Program-made: the position numbers and the translations under genes
In this document: positions 11,056 through 13,882 of the stretch, piece after piece
Layout: every line of letters starts with the position of its first letter
Numbering within the stretch: position 1 is the stretch's first letter
Notes under the pieces: model-generated
What the model was told of the DNA's origin: nothing
The model's input: the letters and a program-made list of their open reading frames with translations, nothing else
Database searches by the model: none
Source of the DNA: Mesonia sp. K7
GTDB lineage: Bacteria > Bacteroidota > Bacteroidia > Flavobacteriales > Flavobacteriaceae
NCBI RefSeq assembly: GCF_003233725.1
Contig: NZ_QKQV01000012.1
Coordinates: forward strand, 1 to 64,000
Length of the DNA: 64,000 nucleotides
Direction: 5' to 3'

Positions 11056-11095
11056 TCCATAATATTGGAAATATTCCATAATTTTGCAGTATGGA
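11056..11095 (+). promoter_or_regulatory. umuD promoter with overlapping inverted repeats (candidate operator)
   Basis: TAATTTTG (11079-11086) is a perfect -7 box only 4 nt before the ATG at 11091, so the mRNA may be leaderless or nearly so. Two inverted repeats overlap it: TCCA-N6-TGGA (11056-11069) and TCCATA-N9-TATGGA (11075-11095), the latter covering both the -7 box and the start codon. This is a plausible damage-responsive operator; the regulator is unknown. Confidence 0.4.
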
Positions 11096-11459
11096 TATCA
11101 ACGATTTTGGAAAATTAGATAAAACAGCTGTAAAACATCAGCAAGAATTTATTGCGCATACCGGATTTCCTAGTGCGGCAACACATTACGCCGAACCTTC
11201 TATCGATTTAAACGAAGTGCTCATCCGTAATAAAGACGCCACTTTTTTTGTACGGATAGAAGGTAATAAACTTTCTGAAGTGCAGATTTTCCACAACGAT
11301 GTGTTGATTATCGATCGGTCCATTTCCCCAAAAAACAACCAATTGGTTTTAGTGATTGAAGATGGAGTGTTTAAAGTAAAGCGAATGGCCTCCCAATTAC
11401 AGCAAGAGGAAATGTTGGTTTGGGGTGTGATTACGTATGTGATTCACGCGGTAAAATGA
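11091..11459 (+). CDS. umuD: UmuD-like protein lacking the catalytic serine
   Basis: A 122-residue S24/LexA-fold protein directly upstream of umuC (ATGA overlap). It retains the GFPSAA segment after the UmuD cleavage point (T24-G25), the SIDLNEVLI and TFFVRIEG strands, the FKVKR lysine (K97) and the terminal WGVITYVIHAVK. However, the GDSM motif of UmuD reads GNKL, so Lys60 occupies the position of catalytic Ser60, and about 17 residues corresponding to the conserved PMNSAYSPI strand are missing before the C-terminus. The frame is clean, with no sign of a frameshift. It should not self-cleave by the Ser-Lys mechanism; it may still bind UmuC. Serine loss is seen directly; the functional consequence is inferred. 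Confidence 0.85.
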   Translation: MDINDFGKLDKTAVKHQQEFIAHTGFPSAATHYAEPSIDLNEVLIRNKDATFFVRIEGNKLSEVQIFHNDVLIIDRSISPKNNQLVLVIEDGVFKVKRMASQLQQEEMLVWGVITYVIHAVK

Positions 11460-12724
11460 TGGCTTTAGTCGATTGCAATAGTTTTTACGCTTCGTGTGAG
11501 CAAGTGTTTAGAGCCGATTTACAAGGCAAACCTGTGGTGGTTTTAAGCAATAACGATGGCTGTATCATTGCCGCAAATAAAGAAGCGAAACAGATTGCCG
11601 ATATTCCGATGTTTCAACCGGTTTTTAAAATCAAGGACTTACTGAAAGCCCACCAAGTAACCATGTTTAGCTCTAACTACACGCTCTACGGCGAAATGTC
11701 ACAGCGGGTGATTAATGTTTTACGAAATTTTTCTCCTCATTTAGAAGCTTACAGCATCGACGAGTCTTTTCTAGACTTATCGGGTTTATCGCATAAAGAT
11801 TTATCCGCTTACGGAAAAGAAATCAAAGAGAAGGTTTTAAAACACACGGGTTTACCCGTTGGGGTGGGGATTGCTTCCACGAAAGTGTTGTCTAAAGTAG
11901 CCAACAAGCTCGCCAAAAAAATTCCTGAAAATGAAGGTGTTTTTGTCATCGATTCGGAAGCAAAAAGAATAGAAGCACTCCAAAAAACCTTAATCGCCGA
12001 TGTTTGGGGAATTGGAAGAAAACATGTGAAACGTCTCCAAAACATTGGCATTTATACAGCTAATCACTTTACCGAACTTCCGCTAAACTGGGTGCGAAAG
12101 AACATGACCGTTGTTGGCGAACGTATGTGGCGAGAATTACGTGGCGAAAAAATGATGGAAGTAACGAACCACAGTCAACCGAGAAAAGCAGTGGCTACGG
12201 CAAAATCTTTTGGGAAAAAGCTCGAAAAACTCGATATCATTGAGGAAGCTTGTGCATATTACATCAGCGAAGTGAGCGAAATACTGCGAAAGCAAAACTC
12301 TACCGCGAGCTATTTACAGGTTTTTTTAAACACCAATTACCATAGTGACTTCGATAAGCAGTATCACCCGAGTATCACCGTAAAATTAGAAATGCCCACC
12401 AACAATACTTTTGTACTCATAAAAGAAGCCAACAAAATTCTTCGAAAGATTTATAAACCTGGTTTTCGCTACAAAAAAGTAGGGGTTTGTTTGAGTGGAC
12501 TGCGTTCAGAAAACTACGTGCAAACCAATTTGTTTTGCCAAGAATTTTCAGGCAAACAACAAAACTTAATGCAAATGATGGACGATATGAATGCCAAGTA
12601 TGGCAAGTCCACCATTTTTTCAAGTAGTTTGGGTATCCGTAAAAAAGAATGGGAGCTCATTAAAGAAGAACGAAGTCCACGATATACCACACAGTGGAAG
12701 GAGTTGCTAAAAGTGCAGGGTTAA
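11456..12724 (+). CDS. umuC: DNA polymerase V catalytic subunit UmuC (Y-family)
   Basis: A 422-residue Y-family translesion polymerase. Palm motifs: MALVDCNSFYASCE (D6) and YSIDESFLDLSG (D102-E103) supply the metal-binding acidics; VVVLSNNDGCIIA is the fingers segment; helix-hairpin-helix (WGIGRKHVKRLQNIGI, about 180-195) and little-finger domains follow. The start is ATG 11456 (MMALVD, matching the family start), whose ATGA overlaps the umuD stop. It would bypass DNA lesions. The partner UmuD has lost its protease serine, so activation may differ from the E. coli model. Confidence 0.93.
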   Translation: MMALVDCNSFYASCEQVFRADLQGKPVVVLSNNDGCIIAANKEAKQIADIPMFQPVFKIKDLLKAHQVTMFSSNYTLYGEMSQRVINVLRNFSPHLEAYSIDESFLDLSGLSHKDLSAYGKEIKEKVLKHTGLPVGVGIASTKVLSKVANKLAKKIPENEGVFVIDSEAKRIEALQKTLIADVWGIGRKHVKRLQNIGIYTANHFTELPLNWVRKNMTVVGERMWRELRGEKMMEVTNHSQPRKAVATAKSFGKKLEKLDIIEEACAYYISEVSEILRKQNSTASYLQVFLNTNYHSDFDKQYHPSITVKLEMPTNNTFVLIKEANKILRKIYKPGFRYKKVGVCLSGLRSENYVQTNLFCQEFSGKQQNLMQMMDDMNAKYGKSTIFSSSLGIRKKEWELIKEERSPRYTTQWKELLKVQG

Positions 12725-12798: not shown

Positions 12799-13209
12799 AT
12801 GAAAACCACTATTTTAAAAAACCTTGTCTTACTTTTTATTCCAATAACCATAGTAGGCTGTAACGACGGAAATAAATCTACTGAGAAAAAAACACTTTGT
12901 TTTGAAAGTGAATATCCGCACCAAACCAATCCCGATATGAAAGACGCTTATACGTTAGAAATAAATGTAGAAGGCGATAAAGTAACCGGAACTTACAATT
13001 GGTTCCCTGCAGAAAAAGACCAACGAAAAGGAACTTTCTCAGGTACGGTAGAGGAGCATATTGTAGATGCGGTCTATACTTTTGAACAAGAAGGGCAGAA
13101 GCAAACTACAAATATCAAAATTTATTACGACAAAGAAAAAGCTACGGTTTTGGGAGAAAGCCCAGAATTAGGCCTAGGGGCGAAAATAAAAAAGGTAGCA
13201 TGTGAATAA
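12799..13209 (+). CDS. Small lipoprotein of unknown function
   Basis: 136 residues with a lipoprotein signal (hydrophobic stretch LVLLFIPITIVGC, Cys21) followed by a charged soluble domain containing YTLEINVEGDKVTGTYNW, a beta-rich pattern seen in small Bacteroidota lipoproteins. Function unrecognised. Its last 8 nt overlap the start of the UDG-like gene, so the two are probably translated together, though no functional link is apparent. Confidence 0.75.
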   Translation: MKTTILKNLVLLFIPITIVGCNDGNKSTEKKTLCFESEYPHQTNPDMKDAYTLEINVEGDKVTGTYNWFPAEKDQRKGTFSGTVEEHIVDAVYTFEQEGQKQTTNIKIYYDKEKATVLGESPELGLGAKIKKVACE

Positions 13210-13882
13210 AACAAGCACTTTGTTCATTCACCAACATCCATATCCGCCATTTATTCCTAAAGACGCCAATAAGCTTATTGTGGGTACTTTACCGCCGCCA
13301 AGATTTACGACGGGAGATTTAAAACCAAACGACGTCGATTTTTGTTATGGCAGTAGCGATGGGCAATTATGGCAAATTCTTGGAAAGATTTTTAAGATTG
13401 ATTTTTTACATGAAAATACAGAAGCAGCCATTTTGCAACGTAAAAATTTCCTCGAAAGAGAAAAGATAGGCATTTGTGATATGGTAGAAGTCGCTTACCG
13501 CGATAAAATAGATGCTTCTGACTTGGGTATTCTAAAACCAAAACTTAGACCGATGATCGAAATTCTAAGAGAAAACCCAAGTATAGAAACTTTATTGTTT
13601 ACCGGAGGAAATTCCAGAAACGGACCCGAATATCTTTTCAGGCGATTGCTCAAGTCCTATAGGGATATTCAGTTGAAGAAAGTGAGCTTAGAAACTCCTA
13701 AAATTCACCAGTTTCTGTTAGAAGGCAGGTCAATCAAAACCGTTTCGCTCACTGCTCCGTCTGGCTCGGCAAATCGTGCGGTAGGAAGTATGTCATTGTA
13801 CAAATTTTTGAAATCTAAAAATAAAGATTTTACCACTATAGATTTTCGGGTGTTGCAGTACGAACCTTATTTTACGACATAA
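13202..13882 (+). CDS. Uracil-DNA glycosylase superfamily protein (mismatch-type)
   Basis: 226 residues. KLIVGTLPPPRFTTG near residues 24-38 resembles the water-activating motif region of the UDG superfamily, VDFCYGSSDGQLWQIL follows as in mismatch/Mug-like proteins, and LTAPSGSANRAVGS (about 180-193) resembles the family's substrate-binding loop. Probably excises uracil or related bases, or is a catalytically altered relative; the exact family is uncertain. Overlaps the lipoprotein gene by 8 nt; ends just before a bidirectional terminator. Located about 0.5 kb after umuDC, it could belong to the same DNA-damage neighbourhood. Confidence 0.75.
   Translation: MNKTSTLFIHQHPYPPFIPKDANKLIVGTLPPPRFTTGDLKPNDVDFCYGSSDGQLWQILGKIFKIDFLHENTEAAILQRKNFLEREKIGICDMVEVAYRDKIDASDLGILKPKLRPMIEILRENPSIETLLFTGGNSRNGPEYLFRRLLKSYRDIQLKKVSLETPKIHQFLLEGRSIKTVSLTAPSGSANRAVGSMSLYKFLKSKNKDFTTIDFRVLQYEPYFTT

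Follow-up and report, generated by a model that had tools for sequence, protein, structure and literature searches.

The umuDC locus of Mesonia sp. K7

The window analysed here, a 64,000-nucleotide stretch of Mesonia sp. K7 DNA, lies on contig 3 of a 2.55 Mb genome that comprises 34 contigs and is 99.89% complete. On its plus strand, ORF translation, a Pfam S24 match and alignment identified a 122-aa umuD gene (11091..11459) coding for a putative pseudoprotease. The product matched the S24 family PF00717 above the cut-off (E value of 2.7e-10), which places it in the S24/LexA-like fold, and fell short of the NCBIfam model for the autoproteolytic subunit (NF007621; 97.5 bits for a cut-off of 110), which leaves it outside that family. 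The translation reads T24-G25, G58-N59-K60-L61 and K97. On alignment with E. coli UmuD, Cys24 is replaced by Thr (the Thr24-Gly25 codons, which stand where the Cys/Ala-Gly scissile bond would be, are at 11160..11165, plus strand), Ser60 is replaced by Lys (11268..11270, plus strand) and Lys97 is retained (11379..11381, plus strand). A sequence-only reading of this DNA had described these same features, namely a lysine replacing the nucleophile (GNKL instead of GDSM), a retained K97 and a TG rather than CG cleavage site, and both the translation and the alignment agree with it. That reading had also reported a deleted C-terminal strand, which is accurate only in part: approximately 18 residues of the LxPxNxxYxPI hairpin are indeed gone, but the alignment places this deletion internally, between residues ~106 and 107 (junction at 11406..11411, plus strand), and the last strand, WGVITYVIH, comes next and is kept.

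The umuD stop codon overlaps the ATG of umuC by 4 bp (ATGA, 11456-11459), so the clean frame running into umuC that had been noted earlier is also found. The umuC gene (11456..12724, plus strand), recognised by profile matches and this overlap, codes for a 422-aa Y-family polymerase with intact catalytic motifs; the genome encodes two Y-family polymerases, DinB and this UmuC, and one RecA. Upstream of umuD on the plus strand, a motif scan located an SOS box of the form GGA-N5-TCC, GGAAATATTCC (11067..11077), which is predicted to be the operator of a LexA-like repressor, and by its position a TAnnTTTG −7 box, TAATTTTG (11079..11086), which ends 4 nt before the start codon. A 226-aa protein encoded at 13202-13882 showed weak similarity to the DNA-deoxyinosine glycosylase model TIGR04274 (38 bits, where the cut-off is 80), and a homologue of it is also found downstream of umuDC in a Salegentibacter genome (L025).

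Distribution of the short UmuD and its UmuC partner

Short UmuDs of 119-126 aa were collected from 51 loci, of which 10 belong to the genus Mesonia (the window counted), 12 to named contigs and 29 to a Flavobacteriaceae sample; two of the proteins, from L022 and L042, are identical. The genus search returned a short UmuD in 10 of 16 genomes, one of which (G008) has a canonical UmuD as well. Of the 299 genomes in the Flavobacteriaceae sample, 32, spread over 25 genus groups and including the window genome, gave a match with an E value of 3.1e-24 or better, and a clear score gap separated these short-type matches from canonical UmuDs. All but two of the 32 genomes (G089 and G300) entered the residue-level examination. 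A second UmuD match of canonical size was present in six of the 32 and none was shown by the other 26. Beyond the family, searches of an order sample (296 genomes) and a phylum sample (395 genomes) yielded scores of 163-181 bits in three genomes only, all of them Flavobacteriaceae, and every other match listed was at or below 108 bits.

The short umuD genes evolve under purifying selection, with a median dN/dS of 0.30 and a maximum of 0.57 (158 pairs with dS of 0.05-1.5), compared to 0.33 for canonical umuD (39 pairs). The possibility, raised at the outset, of a sequencing error or pseudogene confined to a single strain was refuted by the 51 loci together with these ratios. A wider version of the same explanation, in which the gene is an error, a pseudogene or decaying throughout, could appeal to the variability of position 60 among short members and to one congener (L010) with a stop inside umuC; set against 51 intact umuD frames, purifying selection, a conserved promoter and the frequent 4-bp overlap with umuC, we give it next to no credence. 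The short form with Lys60 seen in the window is thus genuine, neither chance nor a strain-specific error. Alignment of relatives showed the short form itself to be conserved clade-wide; Lys60 was not, being shared by the window and one other sequence.

No mobile source for the short umuD was found among phage and plasmid records, none of which (for plasmids, among the best 5000) reached 60% identity or more, and none of 23 pattern matches in viral contigs was confirmed. The genes neighbouring umuDC in the window were absent beside umuDC in the other loci (1.5-3 kb on each side), except for the 226-aa-gene homologue in L025, and the genomic site of umuDC is therefore not fixed.

A umuC gene lies directly 3' of the short umuD in all 51 loci, with the 4-bp overlap in 43. 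In tblastn comparisons with the window UmuC, the best segments of short-type partners were approximately 56-67% identical (75% for one cut copy) and those of canonical partners approximately 37-46% (57% for one cut copy). As UmuD is short, phylogeny was inferred from UmuC rather than UmuD. For this purpose two short-type UmuCs were left out, one running off its contig (L044) and one with an in-frame stop (L010), as were two canonical UmuC pieces (L081 and L087) out of 39 loci, leaving 49 and 37 sequences, respectively. The stop in L010 (genome G012) is a TAA just past the SIDE motif, which represents either a pseudogene or an assembly error. In the tree obtained by careful search, the short-type partners all fell on one side of a branch with support of 100/100. 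The short, dyad-less UmuD is thus a conserved Flavobacteriaceae family, a clade-wide trait with a UmuC clade of its own.

All 49 complete short-type UmuCs carry the DxNxFY and SIDE motifs. They are set apart from canonical UmuCs by Ser9, Gln16, Ala40, Asn41 and Phe53, where the latter have Asn, Arg, Arg, Ser and Gly, respectively. Phe53 of the window UmuC aligns with Gly58 of Dpo4, a position that we take to lie over the templating base. These diagnostic changes near the active site may alter lesion specificity.

Catalytic residues, N-terminal arm and promoter of the short UmuD

The Ser60-Lys97 dyad was complete in none of the 51 short UmuDs: 38 lack both residues, eight have Ser only and five Lys only, the window being one of these five, so that Lys97 is lost in 46 of 51. 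Residue 60 is Glu in 14, Ala in 13, Gly in 8, Ser in 8, Lys in 2, Thr in 2 and other residues in 4. Residue 24 is Thr in every one of them, and T24-G25-F26 is invariant. All 28 canonical Flavobacteriales UmuDs, by comparison, have an intact dyad and Ala24, as do all 31 further canonical loci from across the phylum, five of which repeat loci already counted; the residue counts leave aside 11 Pseudomonadota canonical loci, and the canonical loci are the top-scoring ones of the searches and hence no census. Judging from the aligned residues, the common trait of the family is loss of the dyad and not Lys60. No substitute nucleophile is conserved near position 60 (Ser, Thr or Cys at most 31% in columns 54-69 of short UmuDs), which removes the possibility that a nearby conserved serine had taken over catalysis. 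With the dyad incomplete throughout, self-cleavage by the S24 mechanism is not to be expected, and its loss in the short UmuD appears near certain; the proposal that RecA would be unable to drive self-activation of this UmuD is in line with the residues present.

It had also been suggested that this UmuD might be regulated by another UmuD. The window genome, however, contains only two S24 matches, the window UmuD and an HTH-S24 repressor, and most short-type genomes of the Flavobacteriaceae sample are likewise devoid of a second match. No second UmuD was found in the Salegentibacter genome of L025 either, and a second UmuD supplying catalysis was consequently rejected for these two genomes. 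A more general form of this idea is that cleavage at T24-G25, releasing the GFPSPA arm, is carried out by something other than UmuD itself: the LexA-like HTH-S24 protein acting in trans, Lon, ClpXP or another host protease. The arms of E. coli UmuD are reported to be cuttable in trans by the active site of another UmuD (PMC5342242), and the invariance of T24-G25-F26 would suit such an arrangement, but it is equally expected if the GF residues contact UmuC. The residue preceding the site, moreover, is Thr throughout the short family as opposed to the Ala of canonical UmuDs, and neither of the two genomes mentioned above has a second UmuD. We regard outsourced cleavage as rather improbable.

The arm that would stay uncleaved, residues 1-24 (11091..11162, plus strand), has been rebuilt in its length, charge and hydrophobic positions. 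Residue 24 sits at position 24 in 49 of the short UmuDs and at position 23 in the other two, whereas canonical arms vary in length, with residue 24 at positions 23-34. On average, the 23 residues that precede the site carry a net charge of +2.8 (−2 to 6) in short UmuDs and −1.7 (−6 to 3) in canonical ones. The hydrophobic residues with which the arm docks, at positions 15, 17, 18 and 22, are present in 28, 27, 23 and 28 of 28 canonical UmuDs, and in just 2, 5, 6 and 10 of the 51 short ones. Past the site, mean pairwise identity over residues 25-45 is 0.715 for short and 0.593 for canonical UmuDs, and over the core (residues 46-98) 0.487 and 0.625, respectively (pairs more than 80% identical left out). 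Within the short family, conservation is thus highest in residues 25-45, while in canonical UmuDs the core is slightly ahead of the arm.

In the AlphaFold monomer of the window UmuD, residues 1-25 have a pLDDT below 50 and the ten-residue blocks from 51 to 100 lie at 88-93. The best structural match of this model was UmuD' (1ay9), both with Foldseek (E value of 1.7e-5 and a modest TM-score of 0.53 by query) and with VIA (Z of 10.0 and rmsd of 7.8 over 91 residues), and a profile match to UmuD 8gmt gave an E value of 3.6e-22. As modelled, the core fold of the short UmuD is UmuD'-like.

An uncleavable UmuD could also hold UmuC permanently in a checkpoint-like or non-mutagenic UmuD2C complex that serves to slow replication or perform accurate bypass only. 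In E. coli, uncleaved UmuD and UmuC do act in a checkpoint (PMC3901139) and non-cleavable UmuDs are reported to be poorly mutagenic (PMC5342242), and the constant length of the 24-residue extension would fit a restraining role. Uncleaved E. coli UmuD, on the other hand, is described as needing the arms-down form for its strong contact with Pol III alpha (PMC5342242), and short UmuDs lack the hydrophobic docking positions and have a basic arm. The intact catalytic motifs of all 49 UmuCs, which would be unexpected if synthesis were unused, also count against permanent restraint, and we consider this explanation unlikely. In the E. coli variant UmuD 3A (T14A L17A F18A), the arm is freed, cleavage is abolished and UmuD' is mimicked (PMC5342242). 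As the short UmuDs have likewise lost the residues by which the arm docks for cleavage, their mode of action is expected to be UmuD'-like; of the two states considered at the outset, always off or always on, an arm without docking residues, basic and of fixed length, favours one released by construction over one that is always off.

The promoter is conserved in the short family as well. GGA-N5-TCC occurs within 100 bp upstream of 44 of the 51 short umuD genes, against 0.7 expected from dinucleotide shuffles, and 44 of 51 have TAnnTTTG, the −7 box of flavobacterial sigma-A (PMC9723704), ending 3-5 nt ahead of their start codon. Because of this spacing the short umuD mRNA is probably leaderless, a condition reported as uncommon (5.5%) in Flavobacterium psychrophilum (PMC9723704). 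In Salegentibacter agarivorans, a LexA-like HTH-S24 repressor was shown by EMSA to bind GGA-N5-TCC, and the polymerase genes are induced by mitomycin C (PMC8565304). The box is found at one of 39 canonical umuD loci of the main set, yet within 120 bp of all nine canonical Salegentibacter umuD genes, and it therefore marks the type of regulator rather than the short form. The notion that a short-type umuD promoter of S. agarivorans had been tested in that work (PMC8565304) was dropped: among 15 Salegentibacter genomes, one has a short UmuD, six have a canonical one and eight gave no match, and the S. agarivorans umuD may well be canonical.

Within the window genome, one HTH-S24 repressor candidate was found (L001), with two GGA-N5-TCC boxes upstream; no such box was seen in the flanking stretches scanned around dinB and recA. 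Divergent from this LexA-like gene is one (L001:3-1109, minus strand, contig 32 of G000) whose product matches TIGR03916, a radical-SAM DNA repair protein, at 638 bits, and the two boxes lie between them, an arrangement in which both genes likely share an SOS promoter region. Seven short-type loci are without an SOS box (L057-L060, L063, L065 and L040). The UmuCs of the first six form one clade, and Ser60 is retained in five of these six UmuDs. A second UmuD match of canonical size is present in four of their genomes (G105, G139, G207 and G307).

A proposed permanently UmuD'-like subunit and a second dyad-less lineage

The sequences combine an absent dyad, Thr24, a conserved arm without docking residues, an intact UmuC downstream and an SOS box on the promoter. 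We think it probable that this pseudoprotease is a permanent, UmuD'-like subunit of Pol V whose control is left to SOS transcription. Upon DNA damage, the LexA-like HTH-S24 repressor would leave the promoter and UmuD and UmuC would be made together. The UmuD dimers would need no RecA-driven cutting, as their arms would stay off the body. One of the arms, with its invariant TGF-S-A residues and basic extension of fixed length, could then enter the cleft between the palm and little finger of UmuC, much like the one UmuD' arm that, in a published Pol V model, occupies the UmuC cleft and has its end close to the active site (PMC11791011). The short UmuD would thereby be a constitutively UmuD'-like structural subunit, and transcription would be the main timing switch left, along with RecA as a mutasome subunit.

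It is the changed arm that carries the argument, because E. coli mutants indicate that dyad loss alone would switch Pol V off: UV mutagenesis is greatly reduced with the non-cleavable UmuD 8 (S60A), and other non-cleavable UmuDs are reported to be less active than UmuD 18, which is itself weakly mutable (PMC5342242). Counting against a UmuD'-like role are the eight members that retain Ser60, the seven loci that miss the box, the occurrence of the box at canonical loci too, and the low confidence of the arm in the monomeric model.

The short UmuD shares its S24 fold, GFPSPA arm motif, umuC operon and SOS control with UmuD/UmuD' of E. coli Pol V. It differs in lacking the Ser-Lys dyad, in Thr24, in the deleted internal hairpin and in the loss of docking residues, and for these reasons autocleavage is not expected. 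UmuD 3A resembles it in having full-length, non-cleavable arms with changed docking positions, but is an engineered triple mutant that keeps dyad and hairpin, whereas the short UmuD is a natural family (PMC5342242). The Gram-positive UmuD analogue YqjX/YolD is likewise a small subunit with an arm modelled into the polymerase, and is treated by sequence as a family apart from UmuD, while the short UmuD is an S24 homologue (PMC12926913, PMC6511836). The Bacteroidetes LexA-like repressor shares with it the GGA-N5-TCC operator (PMC8565304), of which the HTH-S24 candidate of the window genome has two upstream; it is a regulator with the dyad residues kept, and the short UmuD a Pol V subunit.

A further parallel is offered by phage P1. 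Its HumD is a ready-made UmuD' without the arm extension, and the short UmuD would similarly provide UmuD' function with no processing step, but keeps a conserved arm extension and has lost the protease instead. The window UmuD scored 59.7 bits against the HumD model NF051876, below its cut-off of 120. In the titles and abstract openings of open-licence PMC articles (preprints lying outside this set), no dyad-less UmuD was mentioned, though full texts and supplements might mention one.

A second dyad-less lineage was found in family f18 of the same class, which from its type of SOS box and its size might be Chitinophagaceae. There, 69 of 146 genomes matched a full-length UmuD at 138 bits or more, the next best score being 101.5. 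Of the 30 loci examined (L113-L142, among them L113:1501-1923 on the minus strand), all have Thr24 and Arg97, 28 have Ala60 and two Ser60, and none has an intact dyad. The dyad is likewise never intact in eight more loci, of which two come from genomes that had been counted before. In 28 of the 30, CTAA-N5-TTAG, which is the other SOS box of Bacteroidetes, lies within 100 bp, against 0.11 expected by mononucleotide shuffling. A phylum search with the f18 profile exceeded 200 bits in f18 only (10 genomes), followed by 142 bits. A complete UmuC, starting between 17 bp before and 188 bp after the end of umuD, was recovered at 21 of the 30 loci, a looser link than in the short-type loci.

At position 9, UmuC has Ser in all of the 25 short-type partners compared (out of 49) and in 20 of the 21 from f18, compared to Asn in 47 of 47 canonical UmuCs. 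Each dyad-less group forms a UmuC clade with an SH-aLRT of 100. A quick tree placed the two groups apart, and a tree in which they were joined was 18.6 log units better (p-AU of 0.80); one origin for both is possible, neither rejected nor shown. As there are at most two origins, the link with UmuC residue 9 is a lead and not a test. With somewhat less than even confidence, we put forward that a class of Bacteroidota Pol V may have dispensed entirely with the proteolytic switch driven by RecA, perhaps in a single event. UmuD would have lost its dyad and gained Thr24, UmuC would have exchanged Asn9 for Ser beside the active site, and the uncut arm would have become a permanent part of the polymerase. 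In the Flavobacteriaceae branch, the hairpin would then have been deleted and UmuC would have gained Ala40, Asn41 and Phe53, while f18 stayed full length, mostly with Ala60 and with Arg97, leaving in both a mutagenic polymerase gated by transcription alone.

In textbooks, the safety catch of SOS mutagenesis is the cleavage of UmuD driven by RecA. The existence of natural families without this switch, in which the SOS box is kept and UmuC is intact, suggests that the catch is dispensable. Such families also provide natural proteins with which one can ask whether the role of cleavage is to break the contact between arm and body or to free the Gly25 end. Finally, UmuD matches are usually taken to be autoproteolytic subunits, so that the prediction of mutation rates in Bacteroidota may change.
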